Source of the DNA: Bacteroidota bacterium
GTDB lineage: Bacteria; Bacteroidota; Bacteroidia; Flavobacteriales_D; Crocinitomicaceae
Direction of reading: 5' to 3'
Length of the DNA: 64,000 bases
NCBI GenBank assembly: GCA_024280295.1
Contig: JAJRQK010000005.1
Coordinates: 62,001-126,000 of the forward strand
Positions 8,435 through 48,586 of the stretch are shown in pieces (within the stretch, counting starts at the first letter, position 1; every line of letters starts with the position of its first letter). The position numbers were made by a program, and so were the translations under genes. The notes under the pieces were generated by a model, which was not told the DNA's origin, did not search any database, and saw only the letters and a program-made list of their open reading frames with translations.

Positions 8435-8635
8435 ATGAAAAAGAATATGGGAATGGCAGACAGAGTGATTAGATTGATTATCGTAGGAGTAATTGCTACA
8501 CTTTACTTTATGGAAATTATTCAAGGAACATTGGCATATGTTTTGCTAGCTGCAGCTGGAATCTTCTTACTTACAAGTTTGATCAATTTTTGCCCACTCT
8601 ACAAAATAATTGGAGTAAAAACATCAAAAAAATAG
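8435..8635 (+). CDS. DUF2892 small membrane protein (YgaP-like transmembrane part)
   Basis: 66 residues with the family start MKKNMGMADRVIRLIIVGV, two hydrophobic helices (about 11-28 and 33-52) and the conserved NFCPLYKIIG end with one Cys. In YgaP the same membrane domain is fused to a cytoplasmic rhodanese; here it is a separate gene 16 bp before a rhodanese gene, so the pair is probably a split version of that architecture (inference), although the rhodanese next door is exported. Controlled by the promoter at 8364-8408. Confidence 0.92.
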   Translation: MKKNMGMADRVIRLIIVGVIATLYFMEIIQGTLAYVLLAAAGIFLLTSLINFCPLYKIIGVKTSKK

Positions 8636-8651
8636 AACTAAAAATGTCGTT

Positions 8652-9146
8652 ATGAAGCAACTTATTCTCATTTTATTTGCAACTGTGTCCTTCGGATCTT
8701 TCGGTCAAATTCAGAGTAGAAGCTACAGTGCCATGCTCTACAAATTGTTGGATCATACAGTAGAAGAAATCAGTGTTAGCGATGCTTCTGAAGTAAGTAA
8801 CTTGACTTTATTTCTGGATGCTCGCGAAAAAGATGAGTTCGAGGTTAGTCATATTAAGGATGCCAAATGGGTAGGTTATGATAACTTTAGAATGAAGCGA
8901 ATGGAAGGGATTCCTAAGGACAAAGAAATTATTATCTATTGTTCAGTTGGTTATCGCAGTGAAAAAATTGGTGAGAAGCTTGAAAAGGCTGGTTATACTA
9001 ATGTTAAAAATCTATACGGAAGTATTTTCGAATGGGTAAATCAAGGACATGCTGTTTATGACAATGATGGTAATGAGACAATTAAAATCCATGCATTCGA
9101 TAAAGACTGGGGACAGTGGTTGCTTAAAGGCGAAAAAACATATTAA
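8652..9146 (+). CDS. Exported rhodanese-domain protein
   Basis: 164 residues with an N-terminal signal peptide (hydrophobic 3-18, cut near FGQ) and one rhodanese domain (about 40-135): LFLDAREKDEFEVSHI and active loop YCSVGYRSEK (catalytic Cys about 99). The C-terminal 30 residues (DKDWGQWLLKG) are outside the domain. Co-transcribed with DUF2892. Together with the lipoprotein at 7002 this makes two extracytoplasmic rhodaneses in the locus. The gene ends before a pair of strong hairpins that separate it from the convergent operon. Confidence 0.92.
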   Translation: MKQLILILFATVSFGSFGQIQSRSYSAMLYKLLDHTVEEISVSDASEVSNLTLFLDAREKDEFEVSHIKDAKWVGYDNFRMKRMEGIPKDKEIIIYCSVGYRSEKIGEKLEKAGYTNVKNLYGSIFEWVNQGHAVYDNDGNETIKIHAFDKDWGQWLLKGEKTY

Positions 9147-9164
9147 ACCTAAACCTTTTAATCA

Positions 9165-9233
9165 TTGAGAAATGTTCCTTTCTCAATACGTTAATGAAAG
9201 AAGCCGTTCGAAATTGAGCGGCTTCTTTGTTTT
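9165..9233. terminator. Two tandem hairpins between convergent transcription units
   Basis: Hairpin 1 has perfect 8-bp arms TTGAGAAA (9165-9172) and TTTCTCAA (9179-9186). Hairpin 2 has perfect 10-bp arms 9197-9206 and 9219-9228 (AAAGAAGCCG core) followed by a T-rich run to 9235, a classical intrinsic terminator for the plus-strand rhodanese. It could also end the minus-strand operon whose last gene stops at 9312. Confidence 0.8.
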
Positions 9234-9311
9234 TTGAAATTTCAACTGAATCTATCTAAATTTGCTTTAACTAGTTATTTTCAAGCGATCTAAAAAAGAT
9301 TAGAATCAAAC

Positions 9312-10127
9312 TTAAGTTTTAAGCTTTCTATAAAAAATCGCGAAGTTACCAGCAAGTAGTGCTATTACAATGGCATTCGGAATTTCAAGGCATTCTAGTC
9401 CAGCAATAAGAAATGCCATTATTATACCATAAATTATTTGCGCATTTGTGCCAATTGGTGATGTTTTTGGTTCCACAATTACGGCTGCACCTATGAAAAG
9501 GATGATAATCAAGTAAGAAAACGACTCATAGGCGTCTAATGTAACTCCTACAAGAAGTGATGTCGCAATAAAGCTAATCGCCAGTGGATGCTTTCGAACC
9601 CTTGCTACATTAAAAATCAATGCTAGCAATATTGGTAAAATTGAAATTGGAATTTCTTTTCCGGCAATAGGAAATCGAATGTCAATTCCTGTAAAATCCA
9701 TTGGTGGAACATTCAAAAATGGAACTACAAATGATAAAAGCGTGATTATTCCTATTGTAAAAACAACAGGGTTGAAAATATTCATTCCTTTGTATTTCAC
9801 GAAAAACTTAGAAACATATAACAAGAGAATAACAAGAATCCCTCTTACTGGCTCTGGATCTGCGTGAGAAAGCATAAGGATAATTAAGAAAGTGCTAATC
9901 ATCGAGTTGATGTACTTCTTGGATTTATCAAATGCTGCGCTAAATACTAAATGAAGCACGCTGGAAATAACAATCAGTCCAACGCCGAGTAGTGCAAAAT
10001 GAAGTCCATCATCAATTCCATCAACAATAAATACATTGGCAATTTTCAAAATTGTTAGCATAATTAGAAACACCAGAAAGTGATGGTATGTCGTTAATTT
10101 GCCTGCTAGTTGCTTAAATTTGCTCAT
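9312..10127 (-). CDS. RnfD/NqrB-like membrane protein
   Basis: 271 residues, about eight hydrophobic segments. The segment EPKTSPIGTNAQIIYGIIMA resembles the conserved region near the flavin site of RnfD (DPVTSP...G). RnfD/NqrB are ion-translocating electron-transport subunits; here there is no RnfC, G, A or E gene nearby, so it is an orphan homologue of unknown activity. Last gene of the TetR-headed operon, 10 bp after DUF2141. Possible role: coupling electron transfer to the membrane in the same stress response as the efflux pump (speculative). Confidence 0.72.
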   Translation of the reverse strand: MSKFKQLAGKLTTYHHFLVFLIMLTILKIANVFIVDGIDDGLHFALLGVGLIVISSVLHLVFSAAFDKSKKYINSMISTFLIILMLSHADPEPVRGILVILLLYVSKFFVKYKGMNIFNPVVFTIGIITLLSFVVPFLNVPPMDFTGIDIRFPIAGKEIPISILPILLALIFNVARVRKHPLAISFIATSLLVGVTLDAYESFSYLIIILFIGAAVIVEPKTSPIGTNAQIIYGIIMAFLIAGLECLEIPNAIVIALLAGNFAIFYRKLKT

Positions 10128-10137
10128 AACTATTGAT

Positions 10138-10593
10138 TTATAGATAAATTACTTTTACGCGCTTACTCATGTTCGAACTAACATAAAAACTCGCTTTTTT
10201 GAAACTAGGTCGATTAGTAAACCCTATCGATGTGAAATTGGAAAACCCTATTCCTTCAATGGGCATGATCCAGCCTTTTTTGATTTTTCCATCTTCATTC
10301 TCATCATGTAAAATGTTCACAGCATACCTGCCTTTAGGAAGGTTTTTAAACGTAACATAAGCACTATAGCTCTTTATTTGACCAATTTTTTTGCGGTAAT
10401 ATTTCTTATACTTTTCGTCTGGAATGGTTCCGTCTTTGTTATACAAGGTGAACTGAATATGACCCTTTGAGTTTCTTAGTTGATTGACTTTTACTGTAAG
10501 TGAATACATTGTTACAGACTTACTTTTCTGAATCGAAAGTAAAGTGAATGCTATTATAGCTAGAGTCAATCCATATTTAAAGATATTTTTCAT
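10138..10593 (-). CDS. DUF2141 secreted protein
   Basis: 151 residues with an N-terminal hydrophobic signal (about 7-22) and one beta-sandwich DUF2141 domain: LTVKVNQLRNSKGHIQFTLYN, then GRYAVNILHDENEDGKIKKG and the terminal GIGFSN segment. The LHDENEDGK stretch is the family signature. Function unknown; such proteins are often beside RnfD-like or efflux genes. Lies 29 bp after the RND gene and 10 bp before the RnfD-like gene. Confidence 0.85.
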   Translation of the reverse strand: MKNIFKYGLTLAIIAFTLLSIQKSKSVTMYSLTVKVNQLRNSKGHIQFTLYNKDGTIPDEKYKKYYRKKIGQIKSYSAYVTFKNLPKGRYAVNILHDENEDGKIKKGWIMPIEGIGFSNFTSIGFTNRPSFKKASFYVSSNMSKRVKVIYL

Positions 10594-10622
10594 AGAAATT
10601 ATTTTAGTATTAATGATTCGAT

Positions 10623-13600
10623 TTACTGCTCTATAATTGGTATTGCAGACTTGTTCGATAGTTTCTTTTTCCCAAATCGCTCTTTAATGCTATCAACGAC
10701 ATAGTAAACAACAGGAACTAAGAAGACTGTGAGAATTAATGATGATGAAACCCCTCCAATAATAACCCAGGCTAATCCATTTTTCCATTCACTTGCAGTA
10801 CCAGTTGCAAGAGCGATAGGTAACATCCCGACAATCATTGAGATACTCGTCATTAAAATTGGACGCATTCGACCTTTTCCAGCAACAATTAGGGCTTCCT
10901 TATAGTGCATTCCTTTCGCCTTTAATTGATTGGTGAAATCGACAATTAGAATGGCGTTCTTTACAACAAGTCCCATTAACATGATCAATCCGAGAAGAGC
11001 AAATAAGCTTAAATGACTGATCGATAGATTGAGAGCTAAGAATGCGCCAATTATCGCAACAGGAATCGAGAATAGAACCACGAATGGATACACGAAGCTG
11101 TCGTAGAGCGCAACCATGATCAAGTAGATGAGTAAGAATGAGATAAGCAACACTGATCCAAGTGCACCGAAACTATCATTCTGACGCTTTATATCACTAC
11201 CCCAAGTCATGTTAACTCCTTCTGGTAATGGGTTTTCTTTCAAATAAGCAACCACATCATCGGCAACACTTCCCGAAGGGCGTCCTAATGCATCAGACGT
11301 TAGGGTTACCGCGGCTTGTCGATCTTTACGCTCTAACAGTGATGGTGAATTATCTCGAACAACTTCTGCGAATTGTGAAACCTTAACTGGAATACCTTTT
11401 GGATTGATAATCGTTAGGTTCTCCAAATCTTGTTGATTCTGGCGGTCAATATCGTCCAGAATAATTCTGATCGGATATTCCGTTCCATCTTCTGTCAGAC
11501 TTGCATCATTGTTACCTGTAATTGCCACTCTAAGATTAATTCCGACGTAAGCCGTGTTCAATCCAAGTCGTTGCATCTTATCTTTATCAGGCACAATTTT
11601 GTACTCTGGACTTCCTTCCTCAACAGATAGTCGAACGTTATCTGATCCTGGAATATCTTGGATGATTGATTTCAAATCCTCACCAGTTTTCATCACAACA
11701 TCAATGTCAGAACCGCTTAGAGTGAACTCAACCGGCGCAGATCTTGGAATAAGTCCAAGTGCGGACATCGAGTAGTTGATTCCGGGGTGTTTCTCTTGAA
11801 GTGCATCACGAAGATCCTTCATAAACACTTCTGTACGCTGATCATTACGCTTGTTTTTTGATTTCAATTGGATCGTAAACTCAGTTTTATTAGGAGAACC
11901 AACACCAAGACTTCCTATTCCAGTACTCGGACCTCCGATATTACTAAAAACAGTTGCCACATCATCTTGATGTAAAATGAAATCTTCAATTTTCCTTGAT
12001 ACGATGTTATTCTCCTGTATTGAGGTCGATTTATCGTATTCCAGAGCGAGTCGGAACTTGCCTTGATCTCCAGTAGAAATCAACTCGGCGCCGATAATGT
12101 TTTGCTTCATCATCACACCAGTAAGTCCAAATAGTGCAAGGACTATCCCAACAAATGCGAGTTTATGAGAGAGTACCCATTTAAGTCCGCGACCATACCA
12201 TTCTGTGAAGGCGTCAAGTTGTTTTTCGAACCATATCAAGAATTTATTGAAGATATTCTTCGGTTTCAGGTCTTCGGATTTCCCGATTCGGGAGGCCATC
12301 CAAGGAGTTAATGTAAATCCAACTAATAAACTCGTCAGGGTAGAGGTGATAACAACTACAGAGAATTGCTTGAGCATATCTGCTACGAATACTTGAATGA
12401 ATAGGATTGGTAAGAACACTACAATATCCACAAGGGTAATTGAAAGTGCAGAAAAACCAATTTCCATTCTTCCGTCCATTGATGCTTCGCGCTTGCCTTT
12501 CCCCATATCTAAGTGACGTTGGATGTTCTCTAAGACTACGGTGGCATCATCTACCAAAATTCCAATGATGAGTGACATCGCTAGAAGAGTCATCAAATTC
12601 AAAGTGTAGCCGAGCATCCACATAACTGCAAAAGCAGTGACTAGGGAAGTTGGAATAGCAACCAAGACGATTAATGAATTACGGAAACTTCGAAGGAACA
12701 AGAGCATCACGATCGAAACGAGAATCACAGCCATGATCAAATCCTCAACAACTGATTCAACTGCTGCAATAGTGTTGTCGGTGCTGTCATCCGCTATAAT
12801 GAATTTAACGTTCTTCGATGCAAACTGTTCTTCAATATCTTTAATTTTGGCCCGAACTGCTGTGGAAACATCAACAGCATTCGCATCTCCTTGCTTTTTT
12901 AGCAGAATTCCGATTCCATTTTTTCCGTTGTAACGATTAATTGAAGTGATCTCTTTTACGCCATCAACAACTGTGGCTATGTCTTTTATATAAACAGGAC
13001 TCCCAGGTATTGGCATGGCAACTTGAACATTTTCGACATCTTCAATTGTCTTGAATTTCCCTGTGAGTCGCACCGAGTTACTTTCTGAGTTGTTTTGAAT
13101 TTTTCCGGCTGGAAGATCTAATCCAGATCGATTTATCATCTCAACTACTTGAGGCAGTGAAATGTGATACAATCTCAATTTCTCTTGATCAATTTTCACT
13201 TGAACTTCTCGCTCTTCACCACCTAATAATGTAAGTTCAGCCACACCCTTTATCTGCTGAATTTGCGGCAAGAACTCATCTTGCATCATTTGATAAAATT
13301 CAGTAGAAGTGTAATCACTTGTCGCACTAATTGACATTATAGGAAGGTCATTTGGAGACACTTTACTCATTTCTGGGCTTAATATCTCAGCGGGCAAATC
13401 CTTTCTGATATTGTCGATGTAACGCTGTGCATCTTGCATGGTCTGATTTAAATCTGTACCATAATTGAGGTTGGCAATAATAACAGATGCGTTCGGCAGA
13501 GATTTAGTTACAAGATACTCGACACCTTCAAGGTTGGACAATGCATCCTCTATTTTACGAGAGACGGAGGTTTCAACTTCCTGCGGATCTGCACCAGGGT

Positions 13601-13751
13601 AAACAGTCTTAATCACCACAACAGGTTGATTGAAGTCGGGCATCAACTCATAGCTTAGGTTTCGATAACCAATGTAGCCCAACAGGACGAATACACTGAA
13701 TATCACTATGATGAGTGATGGTCTTTTAATTGATATTTCGGTAATATTCAT
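10623..13751 (-). CDS. RND efflux transporter permease (HAE1/AcrB type)
   Basis: 1042 residues, full length for the family. Two repeats of a TM1 + large periplasmic loop + TM2-6. TM4 has the proton-relay pair in GILVDDATVVLENIQRH (Asp-Asp), typical of hydrophobe/amphiphile exporters and unlike metal exporters such as CusA. The second half has GLVVKNAILIVDF, GRMRPILMTS. Inner-membrane pump of a tripartite system with the adaptor (5 bp upstream) and TolC-like channel. Substrate unknown. Probably controlled by the TetR protein at the head of the operon. Confidence 0.95.
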   Translation of the reverse strand: MNITEISIKRPSLIIVIFSVFVLLGYIGYRNLSYELMPDFNQPVVVIKTVYPGADPQEVETSVSRKIEDALSNLEGVEYLVTKSLPNASVIIANLNYGTDLNQTMQDAQRYIDNIRKDLPAEILSPEMSKVSPNDLPIMSISATSDYTSTEFYQMMQDEFLPQIQQIKGVAELTLLGGEEREVQVKIDQEKLRLYHISLPQVVEMINRSGLDLPAGKIQNNSESNSVRLTGKFKTIEDVENVQVAMPIPGSPVYIKDIATVVDGVKEITSINRYNGKNGIGILLKKQGDANAVDVSTAVRAKIKDIEEQFASKNVKFIIADDSTDNTIAAVESVVEDLIMAVILVSIVMLLFLRSFRNSLIVLVAIPTSLVTAFAVMWMLGYTLNLMTLLAMSLIIGILVDDATVVLENIQRHLDMGKGKREASMDGRMEIGFSALSITLVDIVVFLPILFIQVFVADMLKQFSVVVITSTLTSLLVGFTLTPWMASRIGKSEDLKPKNIFNKFLIWFEKQLDAFTEWYGRGLKWVLSHKLAFVGIVLALFGLTGVMMKQNIIGAELISTGDQGKFRLALEYDKSTSIQENNIVSRKIEDFILHQDDVATVFSNIGGPSTGIGSLGVGSPNKTEFTIQLKSKNKRNDQRTEVFMKDLRDALQEKHPGINYSMSALGLIPRSAPVEFTLSGSDIDVVMKTGEDLKSIIQDIPGSDNVRLSVEEGSPEYKIVPDKDKMQRLGLNTAYVGINLRVAITGNNDASLTEDGTEYPIRIILDDIDRQNQQDLENLTIINPKGIPVKVSQFAEVVRDNSPSLLERKDRQAAVTLTSDALGRPSGSVADDVVAYLKENPLPEGVNMTWGSDIKRQNDSFGALGSVLLISFLLIYLIMVALYDSFVYPFVVLFSIPVAIIGAFLALNLSISHLSLFALLGLIMLMGLVVKNAILIVDFTNQLKAKGMHYKEALIVAGKGRMRPILMTSISMIVGMLPIALATGTASEWKNGLAWVIIGGVSSSLILTVFLVPVVYYVVDSIKERFGKKKLSNKSAIPIIEQ

Positions 13752-13756
13752 AGCTC

Positions 13757-14815
13757 TTACTTGTTAATGATTGCGTTCACGTTTGCTCCATCGTAAATAT
13801 TGATGAATCCTGAGGTAACAATTACATCGCCTGCTTTTAAGCCACTTGAAACAACTGACTTGTTCTTTATTCGATTGGAAATTGTGATGTCTTGAAGTAC
13901 AGATTTACTATCTCTAATAATATAGACTTGAGGTTTTATACTCGAACCAACAATTGATGATGAAGCAATCAAAATAGATTCGTCGTTCTTATTCCCTTCA
14001 AATTCAACTCTTCCGAACATATTAGATTTGATTTCATTTTCTAAAGAATTATCTACTTCGAATTGAATAGGGAAACTATTCCCCATATTGCCTTTACTAC
14101 CTATCATAATGACTTTTCCGTTCACTTTCATGTTTGGAAATGCATCGACTTTGATGACGTAAGACTTGTCCATTTCAAATATCCCTAGCCGTGATTCTGC
14201 AACATTTACGGTAAATTTTAAGCCAGAAATATCTGTGATGATCAATAGCGGAATCCCCGGTGCAGAAAAGGCTCCAACTTCCATCATTTTCTTAGTTACA
14301 ACTCCGTTGAAAGGTGCTCTAATTGTTGTCTTTTGGATAGTTGTCAACAATGTTTGGCGTTGATTTTTAGCAGCTCTTAGGGCTAGTTCTGTCTTTTCGA
14401 GTTTAACTCCTTCAATCGCCCCAGAATTCACCAAAGTAGTGTATCGTTCAACGTCAGTTTCAAGTCCACTGATTTGAATGTTAACGGTTTGAACTTGTAA
14501 GCGAAGAAGCTTGTCATCTAACTTAATCAAAGCCTGTCCTTTTCTTACGTTGTCTCCCTCGTTAGCGTAAATTGCTATGATTTTACCTTGGACATCTGAG
14601 TTTAATTTAACTTCCATTTTAGGGTTAAATGTTCCAGTGAAGTTATATGCAGCATGCTTACTTGCAATGTCTACTTTTTCTGCTTTTACATTAATTGATA
14701 GCTCTTTATCGTAGTGATAAATTCTGTTTTCTGAGATCTCCTTGTTTCCTTTTAATTGGATAACAATTATTGCAGCGAGCGCTACTAAAATCAATATTCC
14801 TACAATTTTTTTCAT
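13757..14815 (-). CDS. RND periplasmic adaptor (membrane fusion protein)
   Basis: 352 residues. N-terminal membrane anchor or signal (about 3-22), biotinyl-lipoyl-like half (GKIIAIYANEGDNVRKGQALIKL), alpha-helical hairpin (about 105-150), second lipoyl half (IRAPFNGVVTKKMMEVGAF) and C-terminal beta-barrel/proximal domain (AGDVIVTSGF). Links the RND pump to the outer-membrane channel. Four bp gap from the TolC gene and 5 bp to the pump gene, so the three are tightly co-expressed. Confidence 0.94.
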   Translation of the reverse strand: MKKIVGILILVALAAIIVIQLKGNKEISENRIYHYDKELSINVKAEKVDIASKHAAYNFTGTFNPKMEVKLNSDVQGKIIAIYANEGDNVRKGQALIKLDDKLLRLQVQTVNIQISGLETDVERYTTLVNSGAIEGVKLEKTELALRAAKNQRQTLLTTIQKTTIRAPFNGVVTKKMMEVGAFSAPGIPLLIITDISGLKFTVNVAESRLGIFEMDKSYVIKVDAFPNMKVNGKVIMIGSKGNMGNSFPIQFEVDNSLENEIKSNMFGRVEFEGNKNDESILIASSSIVGSSIKPQVYIIRDSKSVLQDITISNRIKNKSVVSSGLKAGDVIVTSGFINIYDGANVNAIINK

Positions 14816-14819
14816 CGTT

Positions 14820-16142
14820 CTATTCTTTTATGTTTCCTGTTAAACTTTTGAGTGATAAATCCGCTTTTTGATATTCAATAATTGCTGTGAGATTTTCCTG
14901 TTGCGTTTCTCTTAATGTAATGCTGGTTGAAATTATCTCACTTATTGTGGACACGCCATGATAGTATTGTACTGTAGTTTGATCATAGATTGATTGAGCA
15001 AGTTCTATTTGAGATTGACTTGTGTTAACTCTTCGCTCTGCAATTGTCCGTTCTAGTCGGGCATTTGCTATTTGCATGTCATTCTTGTCTTTTATTAAGC
15101 TTAATTGTAATCCACTAGATGAAATTTCGATTTTCTTTTGCTTGATTTTCCTACTCGTAACTGTGCCATTGAAGAGGGGGTAGGTAATATTAAGTCCTGC
15201 AAACCCTTGTGCATAAAAATCTAAGAATCGATTCGGCTCTTGATCGTATCCAAATCCTGTTGTACCATAAGACCCGTATAATGAAACTGATGGCAACTTA
15301 GATCGTTTTAATGTTGTTAGTTCTGTCGATAACAATTTACTGCGTGTAGTTGCTAATTGAAAATCTAGGTTGTAATTCAAATCGAGTTGTCCTCCTGTTG
15401 AGTATTCAATGTGAGAATCAATGCTGATTTGTTGATCTAGCGATATTCCCATCATAAATTTCAACCCGTTTAATACTTGTGCAATACGATTTTCAACTTG
15501 CTCTCGATTTGATTGAAGTTGTTCGACTTGAAGAGCAACACGATCAACATCAGTCCCTTTTGCCAATAACTGTTCTTCAACTAACTGAAGAGTGGTGAGA
15601 AGCTTTGTACTGCTCACAAGATTACTATCGATAAATGATAATTGATGCTCAAGAACTTGCGCGTTATAGTATAGATAGGTAATTTCCAGAATGAGTTCAT
15701 CTTCAGATTTCTGATGTTGAATTTCAGAAAGTTCCATTCCAATTTTTGTTGCTTCTATTGCACCGTAGATCTGTGAATTATAGATAGGCGCTCTCAACTG
15801 GACTGATGCATTAATATTATGTGGGACTCCAAATTGGGCAACTTTGAATTGACCATCAGGACCTCCAAACACTGATAGTGGCATTAATTGAGTTGGTAAA
15901 TCCATGAAATATTTGTAATCACCTAAGAGGATTACTTTGGGAATCAAATTAGCTTTTGCTTCCCCATTTTTCTCTGTATTCAGTTCCATATTCGCCTTTG
16001 AAACTTGAAGGCTTTTATTCTGAATTAGTGCCGTATCGATGCATTGTTGAAGGCTCCAGACTTGACCAAAAGTAGATGTGCCTAGCATTAAGATTACCAG
16101 AAGGGTAAGTGATTTTCTAGGTGTGTGAATGTTTACTAACAT
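14820..16142 (-). CDS. TolC-family outer membrane efflux protein
   Basis: 440 residues with a signal peptide (hydrophobic about 12-25, ending GTSTFGQ) and two outer-membrane efflux protein repeats containing long amphipathic helices; WSLQQCIDTALIQNKSLQVSKAN is the typical start of the first repeat. Provides the outer-membrane exit duct for the RND pump encoded immediately downstream. First structural efflux gene in the operon after a 40-bp gap from the cupin gene. Confidence 0.93.
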   Translation of the reverse strand: MLVNIHTPRKSLTLLVILMLGTSTFGQVWSLQQCIDTALIQNKSLQVSKANMELNTEKNGEAKANLIPKVILLGDYKYFMDLPTQLMPLSVFGGPDGQFKVAQFGVPHNINASVQLRAPIYNSQIYGAIEATKIGMELSEIQHQKSEDELILEITYLYYNAQVLEHQLSFIDSNLVSSTKLLTTLQLVEEQLLAKGTDVDRVALQVEQLQSNREQVENRIAQVLNGLKFMMGISLDQQISIDSHIEYSTGGQLDLNYNLDFQLATTRSKLLSTELTTLKRSKLPSVSLYGSYGTTGFGYDQEPNRFLDFYAQGFAGLNITYPLFNGTVTSRKIKQKKIEISSSGLQLSLIKDKNDMQIANARLERTIAERRVNTSQSQIELAQSIYDQTTVQYYHGVSTISEIISTSITLRETQQENLTAIIEYQKADLSLKSLTGNIKE

Positions 16143-16182
16143 AGTGTTGCAATTTTTTTTTGTTTACGAAGGAGAGTTTTCG

Positions 16183-16470
16183 TTATTTAATTAGTAGAAG
16201 CTGACTATCCTTTAGTCCGTCAACCCAATGAAGTACGTGGGGTTCAATTTTCACATAATCACCAGAATTTAGCACAGAACTAAATTCCTGTACATTCTCA
16301 AATTTGACTTGTCCATTTAAGCAAATCAAAAGAGCTGGAACGTTGGTTATATGCTCTTTTAATCTTGCTCCTTCTAGGATTTGAAGGGAAAGAATTTTCC
16401 CTTCCTCTGCACCAAATAATTTGAGTGCAGAGACCTCTTTATTTTTATCGTGTAGCTCTAAAGTATTCAT
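16183..16470 (-). CDS. Small cupin-domain protein
   Basis: 95 residues forming a single cupin barrel: the central part NVPALLICLNGQVKFENV and SGDYVKIEPHVLHWVDGLKDSQLLLI match the two cupin motifs, with a His in each (HITN, HVLHW) as possible metal ligands. No signal peptide. Start overlaps the stop of the lipoprotein gene by ATGA, so they are coupled. May bind a small molecule or metal related to the efflux response; no enzyme activity can be assigned. Confidence 0.8.
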   Translation of the reverse strand: MNTLELHDKNKEVSALKLFGAEEGKILSLQILEGARLKEHITNVPALLICLNGQVKFENVQEFSSVLNSGDYVKIEPHVLHWVDGLKDSQLLLIK

Positions 16471-16916
16471 TCGAAATAGGTGTTATAGGATTTAATACTT
16501 GCTTTAATTTCCATCAGTTTTGTCTTCCCTTCATCTGTAGATTTGACATGACTCATTTGATCAACTAAATCAATGTAAGGTAAAAGCCAAACGTGTAGAA
16601 TATCGTGAGCTTTACCAGTCATTGAACAACTCGAAGTAAGTTTGTTGACATTCACCATTAGTCCGTCTCCTAAACTTTGGTAATCCTCCAAAGAACTGCC
16701 ATCAAAAGATTCGATGCTGTTGCTCATTACGAGAATAGGAGGGAGCATCCCTTCAACTACCTTCCACTTTTTTCCATTATTTAGTTCTAGACCTTCTTCC
16801 GCCTCATTGGACTCAATAATATCTGTTCCATTTGATGTTGTGGATTCTGATTCACTCGAACAGGCAGTCAATAAAATTGAAACTCCTGTGATATAGAAAA
16901 TGTTTTTTACGTTCAT
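16467..16916 (-). CDS. Lipoprotein of unknown function
   Basis: 149 residues with a lipoprotein signal and lipobox LTAC (Cys19), followed by a Ser/Thr/Glu-rich linker. The C-terminal 80 residues look helical and carry CSMTGKAHDILHVWLLPYID, a possible His/Met/Cys ligand cluster. Not recognised as a named family. Starts 1 bp after the TetR stop codon and overlaps the cupin gene, so it is firmly part of the efflux operon; a periplasmic ligand-binding role is conceivable. Confidence 0.75.
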   Translation of the reverse strand: MNVKNIFYITGVSILLTACSSESESTTSNGTDIIESNEAEEGLELNNGKKWKVVEGMLPPILVMSNSIESFDGSSLEDYQSLGDGLMVNVNKLTSSCSMTGKAHDILHVWLLPYIDLVDQMSHVKSTDEGKTKLMEIKASIKSYNTYFE

Positions 16917-42449: not shown

Positions 42450-42595
42450 AAAGTTTTTTTTGCAAGATACTAATTTTCAGAAAGAGCATAAACTCGCGAA
42501 CACAAAAAAGAATATTAAGGGAGGTTGTGCTAAAGGTGAAGATTGGTTAGTGTTTATTTGCTGAAGTATTACATTCATTTATTTAACATAATATT

Positions 42596-42730
42596 AATTA
42601 TAGGACAGTACTATTGATTCGCATTCTGCGACGTATTTGTCAACTATAATGGATATTATTTCTCCGCTTTGCTCCGGACTACGCCTAAATAGCACGTTTC
42701 CTTCTTCGCTACTCATATTGTCCTATAATT
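42596..42730. repeat. 135-bp element with 12-bp terminal inverted repeats in a 734-bp gene-free border
   Basis: AATTATAGGACA (42596-42607) and TGTCCTATAATT (42719-42730) are perfect inverted copies enclosing 111 bp. The surrounding 42450-43183 has no gene; it includes GC-rich patches and the run CAAAAAGAACCAAAAAAATC (about 42947) of a type often seen between Bacteroidota genes. Probably a MITE or island edge. Confidence 0.5.
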
Positions 42731-43183
42731 AGTCGTTATTTTAAATAGCCACACGGCAGCGTGAAAATACGGCTGCTTTGCCAACGCTTTTTAATAATTT
42801 ATTCTTTTTCTCCAGCGCACAAAAAAAGTTATTGTGGTAGCTCACTTGTATACGTAAAATGCTATTTGCCTTAATCAGGCTTTATTTCACATTTTTCTAT
42901 ACTGCGTTCGCTGTGTTAGTTTTATCTGTTCATTTTTGACTTGATGCAAAAAGAACCAAAAAAATCAAGTGGAAACGATGCACCGCGCACTCTGTACAAA
43001 TTCTGCAATTCTATTAAAGTAGTTAGTCTGAAGACTAAAACGCAAGCGCCTTTAATGAATTACTACGTATTTGTACATTCACAGCCACCACACGCCTGCC
43101 GTTTCCACAGGCCTGCGCACTTGGGTTCTATTTAACATAATCTAATTTCGCTTCGGAAACTCATGAAGAATTGTGTTTAAAGA

Positions 43184-43621
43184 TCACTCCAGTTTACTGA
43201 TCATGTTATCTAAAGCGTATTCGCTTAGTTTCTCCATTCCTTTTACGAATATTTTTATATCATAGCTAGATAGATGATTGAATTGCTCTCCCAAATCGTT
43301 ATCAATAAAAATGTAATCATCTGGCTTCGCCAGTTGGTTTGATGGTATTAGATATAACACAGGCTCCATTTCCTTCATAAACAATACTAAGGCAATCCAA
43401 AGATTGTCTTTTGGTTCTCCTAATACTGATTTTGAGATTTTAACGCTTCTGTCCTTTTCTAAATTGACCGTTTGTAAATACAATTCATGATAATTACCTG
43501 CACTGGTCTTGATAATAAAATCTACCCCCTCTGGCCCACTTTCATTTTGAAATACTTCTAACCGAGCTTTCATTAATTCAAGTTTGGTAAAGTGTTGAGC
43601 GTATTTGCGGAGTGTTTGCAT
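43184..43621 (-). CDS. Hypothetical protein of the defence island (possible DUF4365/PD-(D/E)XK fold)
   Basis: 145 residues, no signal peptide. The segment GVDFIIKTSAGNYHELYLQTVNLEKD has the Asp, Glu/Gln order of a restriction-like nuclease core, and the central LWIALVLFMKEMEPVLYLIPS strand-helix fits such folds, but key residues are not clear. It lies 5 bp after the rhuM-like gene, in the same operon as DUF2130 and the RloC-like ATPase. The assignment is a hypothesis. Confidence 0.55.
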   Translation of the reverse strand: MQTLRKYAQHFTKLELMKARLEVFQNESGPEGVDFIIKTSAGNYHELYLQTVNLEKDRSVKISKSVLGEPKDNLWIALVLFMKEMEPVLYLIPSNQLAKPDDYIFIDNDLGEQFNHLSSYDIKIFVKGMEKLSEYALDNMISKLE

Positions 43622-43626
43622 TGATT

Positions 43627-44640
43627 TTATTTTTTCTTTTTAAACTTTTTAGCTGTAGTATCAATTTGCTTAATAAAGTCTTTTTCTACGGTAGACAATT
43701 CGTTTTTAATTTGCTCTTTATATTTCTCATATTCTGTATGTGCCTTATCTAATGCCTTTTTATGACTGACTTTACCTGCATTTACCAAAATGTTATTTCC
43801 TGTCATTGTTAAAAAATCATCTAAACGATCAGACCAATCATTCATATACATTGGCTTACGGTTTAGTGCTTGTAATTCAGCAACTTCTAAATATGCTGTT
43901 ACCATTCTATTTAAGATGTCTAATTCATCCTTCTGTAGGTAGTTTTTGGCTATTTCAGTTTCTTTTTTTGTTGGTTTATATCCTTTAAAGTTCGTTAAGC
44001 CTAAAAATGGTTGATTGGCATTTGCTCTTTGGTAAACAATTTCTGCTGCGGTATTTCCGTGAGCAGCCCAGTGCATTTTATTTTGAATCGTTTTAAAGAA
44101 TAGTAACGATACTTCTGCTTTTGCATCATAATCTACGCTTGTGGCATAAATGTCTAACACTTTTCGCCAAAACACTTTTTCTGACGAGCGTATATCTCTG
44201 ATACGAGCTAGTAATTCATCAAAATAATTACCGCCTCCGACTTCTTTAAGCAAGTCATCATTCATTGTAAAGCCTTTTACAATGTACTCTCGTAAACGAG
44301 CAGTAGCCCATTGCCTGAATTTTGTTCCTTGAATACTTTTAACACGATAACCAACTGATATGATTACGTCTAAATTGTAATATTTAACAGCCTTTTCTTG
44401 TGTCTTCCCTTCGATAGCACCGTGTTGAGTGGTGTGTCGGAAATCCCGACATACCAGTTCTTCATCCAATTCTCCTTCTTTAAAAAGGTTGTTGATATGC
44501 TCAGTTATGGTGCTTCTCCCCTTTCCAAAAAGTTCTGCCATTTGAACTTGTGTAAGCCAAACGGTTTCATTCTCTAATCGAGTTTGAATTTTAGTTAAAC
44601 CGTCTTCGGTTTGGTATATGATTATTTCTGTACTTCCCAT
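43627..44640 (-). CDS. rhuM: RhuM family protein
   Basis: 337 residues. N-terminal MGSTEIIIYQTEDGLTKIQT then VWLTQVQMAELFGKGRSTITEHINN, a helix-turn-helix, followed by the RhuM-specific YNLDVIISVGYRVKS and GTKFRQWATARLREYIVKGF. Family members are found in pathogenicity and defence islands; the mechanism is unknown. Directly abuts DUF2130 (gap 0) and is followed by the small unknown gene. Confidence 0.9.
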   Translation of the reverse strand: MGSTEIIIYQTEDGLTKIQTRLENETVWLTQVQMAELFGKGRSTITEHINNLFKEGELDEELVCRDFRHTTQHGAIEGKTQEKAVKYYNLDVIISVGYRVKSIQGTKFRQWATARLREYIVKGFTMNDDLLKEVGGGNYFDELLARIRDIRSSEKVFWRKVLDIYATSVDYDAKAEVSLLFFKTIQNKMHWAAHGNTAAEIVYQRANANQPFLGLTNFKGYKPTKKETEIAKNYLQKDELDILNRMVTAYLEVAELQALNRKPMYMNDWSDRLDDFLTMTGNNILVNAGKVSHKKALDKAHTEYEKYKEQIKNELSTVEKDFIKQIDTTAKKFKKKK

Positions 44641-45924
44641 TTAATCTAACTCTAATTGATTTTGTTCATTCTCATCATCTTCTTCTCCAGGTAATTCCAA
44701 AGCTTTCACAGACTGAATGGCATTACCCGCAATTCCTCTAATAGATGCATACATATCAATAGTATTAGTGGTTACTTTATCAATCTGTTTATCTCTTTGT
44801 TTCCAAATTCGTTGCATGGAACGTTTTTCACTTTCTAAATCTGATTTCATTTGTGTAAACCCTTCAACAATGGCTTCAACCTGCATTCTAAAGGTATTTC
44901 CAGTAAGAAAAGTGTAGAGCATATCCATCTTATCTCCTTTGTTCTCTTGTGAACTTATGGCTGTACTTAACTGTACAATGGATTCTCTTAATACAGCACA
45001 AAGACCTTTAAACTCTTCGTAATTACAAATCCAAATCCCATCTTTCAAGCCCATTCTATCCATATTAGAAGGCATTACTTCTGTAACCAAAACACCAATA
45101 GTTGCTCCTTTGTCTCGTATATCTGCTTTGAATTTCTCTATCCAACTTGGCTGAAAGTCTTTGGTGCGTTTACTTTCGTAATAAATTGTACCGCAATTCT
45201 GTGCTGAACGAGTATTTACATGTTGTAAACAGTCACCTCCTCTTGCTCCTTTCTTTATTTCCTCGATAGTATCTAACGGAAATTGAACAGCTAACCATTC
45301 TTCAATTGCCAATTCTTGAACTTCTCCTTGCATTTGCATAGAACCCTGTTCTTGCTTGCGCTTCATTTCTTCGGTGAGGTTCTTTTGATCTTCCAATTGC
45401 TTTTGCATTTCTTTAAAACGCAATTCATTCTTTTCTGCCTCTGATTTTCTAATTTTTTCTTTCTCAGTTGTAAGTGTTTCGTTTAGCTTTTTCTGAGCTT
45501 CCGCTTCGGCAGCTTCTTTTAGCTCTCCTTTCTCACGTTTCAACTTCTCAATTTCAGCTTTAGAACGGTTTAGCTCCTTTACTTGCTCAGATTTTTCGTT
45601 TAACTCCTTTTGTAAAGCTTCAAATTGTTCAGATTGCTCTTCTTTTAATTTAGATTTCAGGGTTGATTCAATGACTTTTTTCTCTTCTTTAAGCTGAGAC
45701 TCCAAGCGTTCTTGAAACAATTCGTTTTCTTGCTTTTTAGCCTTCTCAAAGTCAAGTTTTTCTTGTTTTAGCTTTTCTTGCCCTGCTTCGTATTTCTTCT
45801 TCTCCTCTGCTATTTGAGATTGATATTTTTGTTTTATTTCATCTTCTAATTGATGAGTCAAAATATCTTGAACATCAATTGATTCACCACAATTAGGGCA
45901 TTTTATTTGGGTTTCATTAGTCAT
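44641..45924 (-). CDS. DUF2130 protein (zinc ribbon, coiled coil, restriction-like nuclease fold)
   Basis: 427 residues. N-terminal zinc-ribbon half IKCPNCGESIDVQ, then about 180 residues of Lys/Glu-rich coiled coil, then the DUF2130 domain: GDCLQHVNTRSAQNCGTIYYESKRTKDFQPSW, in which the conserved Asp, Glu and Lys (YYESKR) fit a PD-(D/E)XK core. Commonly encoded beside rhuM and restriction genes. Possibly a nuclease acting on unmodified DNA (inference). Confidence 0.9.
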   Translation of the reverse strand: MTNETQIKCPNCGESIDVQDILTHQLEDEIKQKYQSQIAEEKKKYEAGQEKLKQEKLDFEKAKKQENELFQERLESQLKEEKKVIESTLKSKLKEEQSEQFEALQKELNEKSEQVKELNRSKAEIEKLKREKGELKEAAEAEAQKKLNETLTTEKEKIRKSEAEKNELRFKEMQKQLEDQKNLTEEMKRKQEQGSMQMQGEVQELAIEEWLAVQFPLDTIEEIKKGARGGDCLQHVNTRSAQNCGTIYYESKRTKDFQPSWIEKFKADIRDKGATIGVLVTEVMPSNMDRMGLKDGIWICNYEEFKGLCAVLRESIVQLSTAISSQENKGDKMDMLYTFLTGNTFRMQVEAIVEGFTQMKSDLESEKRSMQRIWKQRDKQIDKVTTNTIDMYASIRGIAGNAIQSVKALELPGEEDDENEQNQLELD

Positions 45925-45942: not shown

Positions 45943-48360
45943 CTATGTTTCAACCGTTTCATCAGGAACAGATTCACCTATACTATTTAATAAAGCCTCA
46001 TATTGATCATTATCTTGTTTAATTCGTTCAATAATCAATTTGGCTGCTGTGTTCATTTCAGGCACTTCTACAACCGATTCTCCTCTCTCAAATATCCCAC
46101 TTAAATGAGAATATTCGTTATTTAATCGATCCGTAAACACTGCTGGTATATTCTCATCACCAAAAAACTTCTTCATTTTGTCCATTGGATTCGTTGAGTC
46201 AGGGTATTTGTAATAAAGGAATAACTCTAAAAATTTCCGTGCATTATTACCAAAATTATAAAATGCTGTGTAACTGCTATCATCCACATTTTCCATTGTC
46301 GAACACTTATAAATTTGACTAAACAAATAATTGAATTCAGAAACGTAATCCTTCAAATAGTTAGGCATTATTTTAATCGTAGATTTTTTATCATTTCTTT
46401 CAATAACTAAATAGCGGTAGAGCTTCGTTCTTTCAGATTTTCTATCATCATTATGTGCATTGGGAAGTCTTTTTAAGTATTTTAAAAAGTTCAAATTGTG
46501 AGTTGAAATGAATAACTGCTCAAAATCTTCTTCTCCATATATTTGAGTATTGATTAATGTATAAATGAAGAAAATGTGATTACTGTCAAGACTTGAAATA
46601 GGATCATCAATCCAGATAATTGGTTTTTTCCCTTTAGTTTCAATATCCTGAAGCTTTGCCATAAAATAGCAGAATGCAATTAAACTGTTTTCACCTTCGC
46701 TTAAATGGTATGCTTTTTTGTTTTCTCTATGTATTTCAAACCTATATTGTTTACTCCCTGTATCTTCATCTTCAAATTCAATAGCTTTTAGAGATAAAAA
46801 ACTATGACCGAAATAATTATTCAGTAATTCATTAACCTTATCAGCTCCCTTGCTCTCATCTTTCAGTTTCCTTTGCTTTGTTGTAATCTGACTTAAAACG
46901 TCATCTATTTCAATCTGCTTTTCATCTCTTTTATTCTTTTCCTCTGACAATTTAGTGCTCAGTGCAGAGATATTAGTTACCTGTTCATCATACTTTATTG
47001 TAGCTATGAAATCATAAATTTCACGTAAACGTAAATTCTTCTTAGCTTTCTCTTGGTCTTTACTTAACTTTTCCGTGTATTCATTAGATTTTGCTCGTAA
47101 TCCTTCTATTTTCTCTACCGCTGTATCTACTTGCGATTTCACATTATCCGGTGTTTCAAATATTTGTGCATTTATGATGTCATTTTTTCTTTTTTCTAAT
47201 TCTGTTATCAATAGGGTAAGAGAATTTTGATAATCTTTAATAGCACTATCAAATGCCTCTTTAACTAAATCAAAGTCATTATTATACTTGGAATAAAATT
47301 CATCTTTTTTTACAATTTCTATTGTATCAAAAGTCTTGCTTTCATTTTCTATTTCAGTAATTAAGCCAGTGATTTCCTTCTCCAATTTATTCGATTCCTC
47401 ATCAAAATGTTTATCTAATTCACTCCAACGTGGTTCTTTGATTTCATTATTGCAAAAAGCACAAGTATCTAATTTATCTTTATGTAAATTTCGACCATCT
47501 TTCACCCATCTATTTAGTACGGCATCTTTAACTAAATATTCAATTTTATCTGATTGAGCAATTGGTTTTTCTGCCAATTCTTTTCCTTTGTTTGAAAAGT
47601 CTTCAAAAGTTAATATCAACTCTTTTAACTCAAGAATATCATCTTTTGCTTGTTCTAGAAGAATTTTTTCTGCTAACACTTTATCTTCATCAGAAATAGG
47701 GCTAAACTCTTCTTTTTTAACGTCTAGTATTTCTCTTTTAAGCTTAGCGTTCGTGTAGTTTTGATCTCCAAATTTTTCAGAATTATATTTAATTCCATTA
47801 GGGTTTCCAATAGCCTTTTCACTTAGTTGTGAAGCTAAAGTGTTTTCAGCTGTCTGGTGTGTTGATTCAGCGGTCTTGAATATCGTTTGAAGAGATTTCA
47901 AGTCCTTAAAAAAAGCTGTTTCTTTATCTTCTTCATTTGTCCCTAATTTATCTTTTAAGACCTTTATGTCCTCTTCTATTACATTATTGTCTCCTCCGAG
48001 TATTGCAAAAGGTTGAACATTTTCATCAGGGTTATTTATGAACCTTAAATTGTGCTTAATAAAATCTTCATTAAATACTCGGATGGTTTTGTTGTGAGAG
48101 GAAAAGTCCACTTGTGTAACATCATCATTATCAACTACAGAAATACAACATTCAGGGTTTTCATACTTATCTGAAATGATACCTGTTTCCATTGCTCTGA
48201 GAATTCTCGAAAGAGTTGTTTTTCCAGAATAATTTCTACCGTAAAGAATATTTGTCTTTTTAAATTCTAAAGTATTAGAATCATCATCAACAACTTCCGA
48301 ATCCCAATCGAAGTCATTGAATACAGCAAGATTTTTAATATATTTAATTTTCTCAATCAT
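45943..48360 (-). CDS. RloC-like ATPase with zinc hook and anticodon-nuclease-type C-terminus
   Basis: 805 residues from ATG 48360 (MIEKIKYIKNLAVFNDF); the longer form to 48405 would begin inside the restriction remnant. Walker A GRNYSGKTTL (41-50), long coiled coil broken by CAFC (Cys299, Cys302; zinc hook), signature HLSEGENSLIAFCYF and Walker B IIWIDDPISSLDSN. The C-terminal domain has Arg708-x3-Glu712 (ARKFLELFLYY) and His752 (NEYSHL), matching the Arg/Glu (i,i+4)/His triad reported for the anticodon nucleases PrrC and RloC. It probably cuts tRNA when a phage blocks restriction. Adjacent to a type IIG/I methylase remnant. Confidence 0.85.
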   Translation of the reverse strand: MIEKIKYIKNLAVFNDFDWDSEVVDDDSNTLEFKKTNILYGRNYSGKTTLSRILRAMETGIISDKYENPECCISVVDNDDVTQVDFSSHNKTIRVFNEDFIKHNLRFINNPDENVQPFAILGGDNNVIEEDIKVLKDKLGTNEEDKETAFFKDLKSLQTIFKTAESTHQTAENTLASQLSEKAIGNPNGIKYNSEKFGDQNYTNAKLKREILDVKKEEFSPISDEDKVLAEKILLEQAKDDILELKELILTFEDFSNKGKELAEKPIAQSDKIEYLVKDAVLNRWVKDGRNLHKDKLDTCAFCNNEIKEPRWSELDKHFDEESNKLEKEITGLITEIENESKTFDTIEIVKKDEFYSKYNNDFDLVKEAFDSAIKDYQNSLTLLITELEKRKNDIINAQIFETPDNVKSQVDTAVEKIEGLRAKSNEYTEKLSKDQEKAKKNLRLREIYDFIATIKYDEQVTNISALSTKLSEEKNKRDEKQIEIDDVLSQITTKQRKLKDESKGADKVNELLNNYFGHSFLSLKAIEFEDEDTGSKQYRFEIHRENKKAYHLSEGENSLIAFCYFMAKLQDIETKGKKPIIWIDDPISSLDSNHIFFIYTLINTQIYGEEDFEQLFISTHNLNFLKYLKRLPNAHNDDRKSERTKLYRYLVIERNDKKSTIKIMPNYLKDYVSEFNYLFSQIYKCSTMENVDDSSYTAFYNFGNNARKFLELFLYYKYPDSTNPMDKMKKFFGDENIPAVFTDRLNNEYSHLSGIFERGESVVEVPEMNTAAKLIIERIKQDNDQYEALLNSIGESVPDETVET

Positions 48361-48370
48361 ATCTTCGGTA

Positions 48371-48586
48371 TTAGCTCCCCTCCACAATTTTAATCTCTTC
48401 CTCACTCAATCCCAACTCATAAACCATTGCATCAATCTCCGCATCAGTTTTATCAATTTCAGCTTTTAGGGTTTGTGCTTCTCCTCTTTTTGTTTCAAAA
48501 ACTTCCATCCACTCCATTTCATCTATTTTAGAAAGCTTCTCCCCTTCAACTTTCTTAATGGCTTTATTGAGTTCCGTAATAAATTC
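48371..48586 (-). pseudogene. Restriction-modification N6-methylase C-terminal remnant
   Basis: A minus-strand frame of 71 codons, from just after an in-frame TAA (48587-48589) to TAA 48371-48373, encodes the tail typical of Eco57I-type/type IIG enzymes: IDKTDAEIDAMVYELGLSEE and EEIKIVEGS. No start codon precedes the conserved part and no methylase domain is present. It is the tail of a lost enzyme next to the RloC-like gene. Confidence 0.75.

Follow-up and report, generated by a model that had tools for sequence, protein, structure and literature searches.

We found that the gene at positions 45943–48360 on the minus strand of the window (the whole 64,000-nucleotide stretch of DNA that was analysed) probably encodes an RloC-type anticodon nuclease, in which a DNA-end-sensing ATPase switches on a tRNA-cutting, HEPN-like RNase. 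The proposed sensor of DNA ends, such as those that arise when a phage degrades the host DNA, is a Rad50-like ABC ATPase head on a coiled coil whose CxxC tip is of the zinc-hook type. Turnover of ATP would in turn activate a C-terminal HEPN-like RNase centred on Arg708, Glu712 and His752, which would cut the anticodon loop of tRNA, stopping translation, so that the infected cell would yield few phages. DNA-end sensing, zinc control, tRNA cleavage and translation arrest are attributed to the window protein from published work on RloC: homology to the characterised members predicts both the sensing of DNA ends and the cutting of tRNA. The same defence locus would once have had a type IIG-like restriction enzyme upstream of the rloC operon.

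The reading frame runs from an ATG at 48360 to a stop codon ending at 45943 and encodes 805 residues. A GTG start could extend it to 48405; relatives, including the one from Allomuricauda (L026), align from the ATG. Pfam and PADLOC searches and sequence motifs all identify the gene: AAA_13, for which the 3.46-Mb genome has no second match at E 0.001, covers residues 27–757 (E 2.6e-135), and the PADLOC PDC-S06 model PDLC04887 matches residues 1–797 (1000 bits). The two halves of an ABC ATPase surround a coiled-coil insert that bears a CAFC hook, and an anticodon-nuclease-like (HEPN-like) region follows at the C terminus. The Walker A motif GRNYSGKT begins at residue 41, the signature LSEGE at 553 and Walker B (IIWIDDP) at 581. 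The hook occupies residues 300–303 (47452–47463, minus strand, coordinates derived from the residue numbers), and the C-terminal region, residues 642–805 (45943–46437, minus strand), contains Arg708, Glu712, Arg745, Ser751 and His752. RKFLE spans residues 708–712 and His752 lies within EYSHL, giving a triad of the form R-x3-E-x39-H with Ser751 directly before the histidine.

These features match RloC as published, with a motif Arg-x3-Glu-x36–52-His in which Ser often precedes His, a length of 658–897 residues and a coiled-coil/hook insert as the feature that separates RloC from PrrC (PMC2610378). At 805 residues the window protein falls within that size range; its ABC motifs are split by a coiled-coil insert, the CxxC lies in the insert, and its C-terminal residues follow R-x3-E-x36–52-(S)H. 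That the gene is an intact, RloC-type member of an already known family is well supported. The preliminary description had placed Walker A and B motifs, the CAFC hook and the Arg708/Glu712/His752 triad in this protein, and each was recovered in an intact open reading frame. The order and spacing of the triad, which had been likened to those of RloC and PrrC, fit the published RloC definition, and the RloC-like identity holds with the qualification that hook, length and tree make the protein RloC-type, not PrrC-type.

The loose triad motif is weak evidence by itself because it is frequent in shuffled sequence: among 5000 shuffled versions of the C-terminal region 254 contained R-x3-E-x36–52-H, and among 5000 of the whole protein 2255 did (14 and 222 of 5000, respectively, when SH was demanded). 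Conservation is the decisive test. Homologues came from 77 related loci together with others from 395 genomes of the phylum, 20 of which matched at 1e-10, the window's own genome included. Among the 97 non-window rows, 81 were counted, having residues at both 708 and 752 and 110 or more aligned positions in the C-terminal region; ten of these are distant (25–32% identity over the matched part), L021, one of the ten, is PrrC-sized, and L003 and L088 represent a single gene from two collections. Arg708, Glu712, Ser751 and His752 are identical in all 81 rows and are the sole strictly invariant positions among the 165 residues 641–805, with Arg745 kept in 75. The triad, whose absence from close homologues had been named as a possible refutation, is thus conserved throughout this set. 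Cys300 and Cys303 were likewise both kept in 65/65 close and 8/8 distant near-full-length rows (73/73), counting the best frame per locus and excluding L001, L002, L022, L023 and L025 as the window itself or second pieces. In the Geobacillus kaustophilus RloC, replacing any residue of the triad by alanine destroys activity in vivo, hook mutants are far more active than the wild type, and the wild type is inhibited by zinc whereas a hook mutant is not (PMC2610378).

We modelled the protein with AlphaFold2, both whole and as the C-terminal region by itself. The whole-protein model (pLDDT 83, pTM 0.47) is mostly helical at residues 125–517, and the heads of Rad50 and SMC proteins were its best Foldseek matches in the PDB (E 2.9e-8); residues 750–765, including His752, fell below pLDDT 50. 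The C-terminal region alone (pLDDT 77, pTM 0.67) was modelled as a helical bundle. HEPN chains headed its Foldseek list, but with a best E of 0.14 and none at 0.001, and the 12 best rows from VIA-align were HEPN-type (Z 6.3–7.4), with catenin next at 6.1. The count of HEPN-type chains includes 1wty, 1jog, 5yep and 7bxo, which we take to be of this type and whose titles lack the term. Arg745-x6-His752 fits the HEPN Rx4–6H motif, to which group the RNase domains of PrrC and RloC have been assigned (PMC3710099). The models weakly suggest a HEPN-like C-terminal region. Concerning the proposal that this region folds like an anticodon nuclease, the appearance of HEPN chains at the top of both lists speaks for it, with middling scores that for a helical bundle are no more than suggestive. 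Searches of PDB sequences with the protein, with profiles from alignments A1 (46 of 63 listed near-full-length relatives) and A2 (26), and with one PrrC relative found no true relative; profile matches at E 0.01 were set aside as coiled-coil noise, mainly apolipoprotein and keratin.

The same build, an ABC ATPase joined to a HEPN RNase, could in principle act on mRNA, rRNA or another substrate instead of the anticodon loop of tRNA. Invariance in the C-terminal region is limited to one serine and the catalytic residues, and such a sequence signature does not fix the substrate; moreover, HEPN RNases include cutters of mRNA such as RNase LS (PMC3710099). We nevertheless consider a different substrate unlikely, since two characterised RloC proteins, at 33% mutual identity, both cut tRNA (PMC3874168).

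A remnant of a restriction-modification enzyme had been reported beside the gene, and this was confirmed by tblastn. It lies at 48374–48586 on the minus strand, comprises about the last 70 codons of an Eco57I/MmeI-like enzyme and ends in a stop codon just before the rloC ATG. It is 47% identical (E 1.3e-10) to residues 952–1018 of the enzyme encoded at L026:6934–9987, an intact protein of 1018 residues with Eco57I, TaqI_C and MmeI-type domains that is encoded directly upstream of RloC in Allomuricauda. From its Pfam domains we read the L026 enzyme, and with it the matching remnant, as probably type IIG-like. No other copy of the remnant enzyme was detected in the window's own genome at E 0.001.

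Loss of the linked enzyme raises the question of whether rloC is itself decaying. Compared with its nearest relative, the L026 RloC (83% identical), the window gene has a dN/dS of 0.076; for residues 641–770 dN is 0.022 with dS saturated, and the insert, residues 131–500, is the least constrained part at 0.169. The gene is under purifying selection relative to L026, in a pairwise comparison, which leaves room for a recent loosening of constraint in the window's lineage alone. The gene might be a passenger that has lost its partner and is simply still unbroken, as could be read from the erosion of the upstream restriction gene, which retains about 70 codons against some 1018 in its L026 relative. 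This is very improbable given the intact frame, the low pairwise dN/dS, the retained motifs and the intact DUF2130 and RhuM frames downstream. A nuclease that stays constrained after its linked enzyme was lost would provide a natural example for the published view of RloC as carrying its own switch.

The further proposal, that the partner is gone and the gene acts alone, stood in part. The linked enzyme is lost, but contig C60 of the same genome carries a complete-looking type I system in one stretch, with hsdM (HsdM_N, N6_Mtase), hsdS (Methylase_S) and hsdR (HSDR_N, SWI2_SNF2), so that the type I system may act in trans and the gene need not act alone. Directly after hsdS on this contig (L158) lies a gene for a 373-residue protein without a Pfam family. 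Regulation as in PrrC would mean that a type I complex silences the window protein in trans until phage anti-restriction proteins release it, an arrangement that could draw on the C60 genes and that finds some echo in the type I genes near the close relatives L028, L029 and L082. It is nonetheless a quite doubtful account. The Acinetobacter baylyi RloC, which cuts tRNA-Glu and tRNA-Gln, is activated by inducers of DNA breaks also in mutants deficient in restriction-modification (PMC3874168); the partner lost from the window was type IIG-like rather than type I; and at 27 of 42 well-flanked loci, the window included, no restriction-modification-type neighbour was detected within 8 kb. The A. 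baylyi study leaves open the role of restriction-modification during infection (PMC3874168). In the literature covered, little speaks directly for RloC protecting cells against phages: PMC12322248 lists it as not tested, and in Pseudomonas RloC was found to correlate with susceptibility to phages (PMC12447246).

We surveyed the surroundings of rloC at 77 loci, namely 76 relatives and the window, L041 being omitted because its frame ran on. Restriction-modification, BREX or SNF2/modification-type genes lie within 8 kb at 22 or more of the 77 loci, and restriction-modification-type neighbours occur at no fewer than 15 of the 42 loci whose flanks reach 8 kb or more in either direction; these counts are lower bounds because the query set was limited and the window remnant is uncounted. 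Absence of a linked restriction-modification system is common among RloC-type loci, and RloC has been described as rarely linked to such systems (PMC2610378). The closest rows in the tree differ in partner, with a type IIG-like enzyme at L026 (the only one among the 77 loci), a type I system at L029 and none detected at L027. Such variation among the nearest relatives argues for a movable, self-contained unit.

In the window rloC is followed on the minus strand by three further genes. A DUF2130 protein of 427 residues (44641–45924; PF09903, E 1.2e-78) begins 18 bp after rloC, a RhuM-family protein of 337 residues (43627–44640; PF13310, E 4.5e-108; PADLOC PDC-S05) 0 bp after the DUF2130 gene, and an open reading frame of 145 residues without a known family (43184–43621) 5 bp after rhuM. 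Because these gaps are so short, the four genes, including that for the 145-residue protein, are likely to form an operon with rloC as its first gene. This spacing makes it plausible that RloC acts together with DUF2130 and RhuM. Searches of Pfam, PADLOC and NCBIfam at E 0.001 assigned the 145-residue frame to no family, and it had no Pfam match over the cut-off with the limit set to E 10 and no PHROG; its one weak plasmid match was from Acinetobacter baumannii (26% identity). Beyond it, at the downstream edge of the operon, about 0.7 kb (42450–43183) are free of listed frames of 80 residues or more. The consensus pattern of Bacteroidota promoters gave 4 matches against 3.67 expected, none of them near the operon. 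The DUF2130 protein has two zinc-finger matches in the PDB at its N terminus, which has a CPNC zinc-ribbon-like start (a sub-threshold match). The protein also shows, by eye, a G-G-D...E-S-K pattern that recalls PD-(D/E)XK nucleases.

The gaps of 18, 0 and 5 bp could also be taken to mean that RloC, DUF2130, RhuM and the 145-residue protein are one obligatory system, in which RloC by itself does not protect. The DUF2130 gene comes after rloC not only in the window but also in L027 and, split in two, in L026, RhuM occurs within 8 kb at 8 of the 77 loci, the window included, and RhuM has been noted in loci with PrrC-like genes (PMC3710099). The same survey makes strict dependence unlikely, DUF2130 being found at only 3 of the 77 loci and RhuM at those 8, some of the loci having short flanks, and L029, second nearest on the tree, having neither within the flanks covered. 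Our literature search found no joint mention of DUF2130 and RhuM. The L026 DUF2130 gene (12436–14924) is split into pieces of 194 and 226 residues about 1.2 kb apart, possibly by an insertion.

SbcD, found at 9 of the 77 loci (L049, L051, L054, L060, L064, L070, L072, L075 and L091), lies beside RloC in each, and SbcC occurs at 7. In six of the nine there is a four-base overlap between the predicted SbcD start and the RloC stop. A protein search of the nine genomes gave one SbcD match in five and two in four, some of the second matches being partial. RloC and SbcD are mentioned together in the literature, including PMC2610378, and we do not claim that their linkage is unpublished. The adjacency offers a testable lead on DNA-end triggering. 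We suggest, as a speculation that is more likely wrong than right, that RloC in this clade is an exchangeable DNA-end alarm, repeatedly paired with the end-making or end-processing enzyme of its locus (type I, type III-like or type IIG-like restriction-modification, or SbcD/SbcC of the Mre11–Rad50 type), and that in the window DUF2130, as a possible PD-(D/E)XK-like nuclease, replaces the dropped restriction enzyme. If so, RloC and SbcCD of some lineages would constitute one translationally coupled operon in which end processing is joined to tRNA cleavage.

Near-identical RloC proteins were seen in Flavobacterium, Avrilella and Sphingobacterium (L032, L036 and L050, about 8480–16760; end branches 0.004–0.008), with an integrase-like gene (by eye) upstream, common gene clusters downstream and no restriction-modification detected. 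We read these three as recent mobile cargo. A phage search with the window protein returned matches in 8 records, one of them covering at least 80% of the protein and all below 60% identity.

To place the protein among known systems we compared it with PrrC-type proteins in two trees. Of 296 genomes of the phylum, 59 had a match to the PADLOC PrrC model at E 0.001, in many cases over the ATPase only, and the window protein matches only positions 98–226 of the 372 in this model. The 18 strong PrrC loci have frames of 358–419 residues, with no CxxC in their frames of at least 300 residues. A 59-row tree was built from 15 of these 18 loci, with PrrC frames chosen by the triad pattern (L116, L117 and L120 gave none), the window, 24 close relatives and 19 other AAA_13 proteins. 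One branch (SH-aLRT 100) splits the window and 43 hook-bearing proteins from the 15 PrrC-type rows, which fill about half of the tree columns because the insert is absent from them. A quick 92-row tree took in 8 of 13 PrrC loci and placed seven of the eight together; one PrrC locus, L111, had entered as a wrong 423-residue frame (its triad is in a 402-residue frame), and the close rows were not one clade there (4 changes). We also sought the G. kaustophilus RloC by its published residue numbers (PF13166, 299 genomes of the class of Paenibacillus L092), with no match among frames of at least 300 residues (L103–L154), and the likeness to characterised RloC is drawn from published description.

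PrrC, as in EcoprrI, shares with the window protein an ABC ATPase and a C-terminal R-x3-E...SH, a pattern present in 15 of the 18 PrrC-model loci. It differs in having 341–416 residues and no hook insert and in being tied to type I restriction-modification (PMC2610378). We rejected a PrrC identity on these grounds, since the window protein has 805 residues and a CAFC hook and lies on the hook side of the SH-aLRT 100 branch, and since the adjoining remnant is type IIG-like, the type I genes being on another contig. Rad50 and SbcC share the ATPase head, the coiled coil and the CxxC hook and gave the best PDB folds, yet they have no RNase C-terminal region (PMC2610378); a Rad50/SbcC identity was rejected because the conserved Arg/Glu/His region is present within residues 641–805. 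PADLOC PDC-S06, matched over the full length, is a candidate label without a mechanism that one publication carries as a table entry; the present analysis suggests that this label may stand for an RloC-type anticodon nuclease. The closest counterpart remains RloC of G. kaustophilus and A. baylyi ADP1, with which the window protein shares its size class, an ABC ATPase split by a CxxC-bearing coiled coil and the triad, and of which, again, only some members are linked to restriction-modification. The window differs from these in that its lost enzyme was type IIG-like, whereas the 2008 paper names type I or III, and in that DUF2130 and RhuM follow the gene. The kind of protein is thus already known, and what the locus adds to RloC is a case in which the linked restriction enzyme was lost in nature and DUF2130, seen at three of the 77 loci, is a partner.
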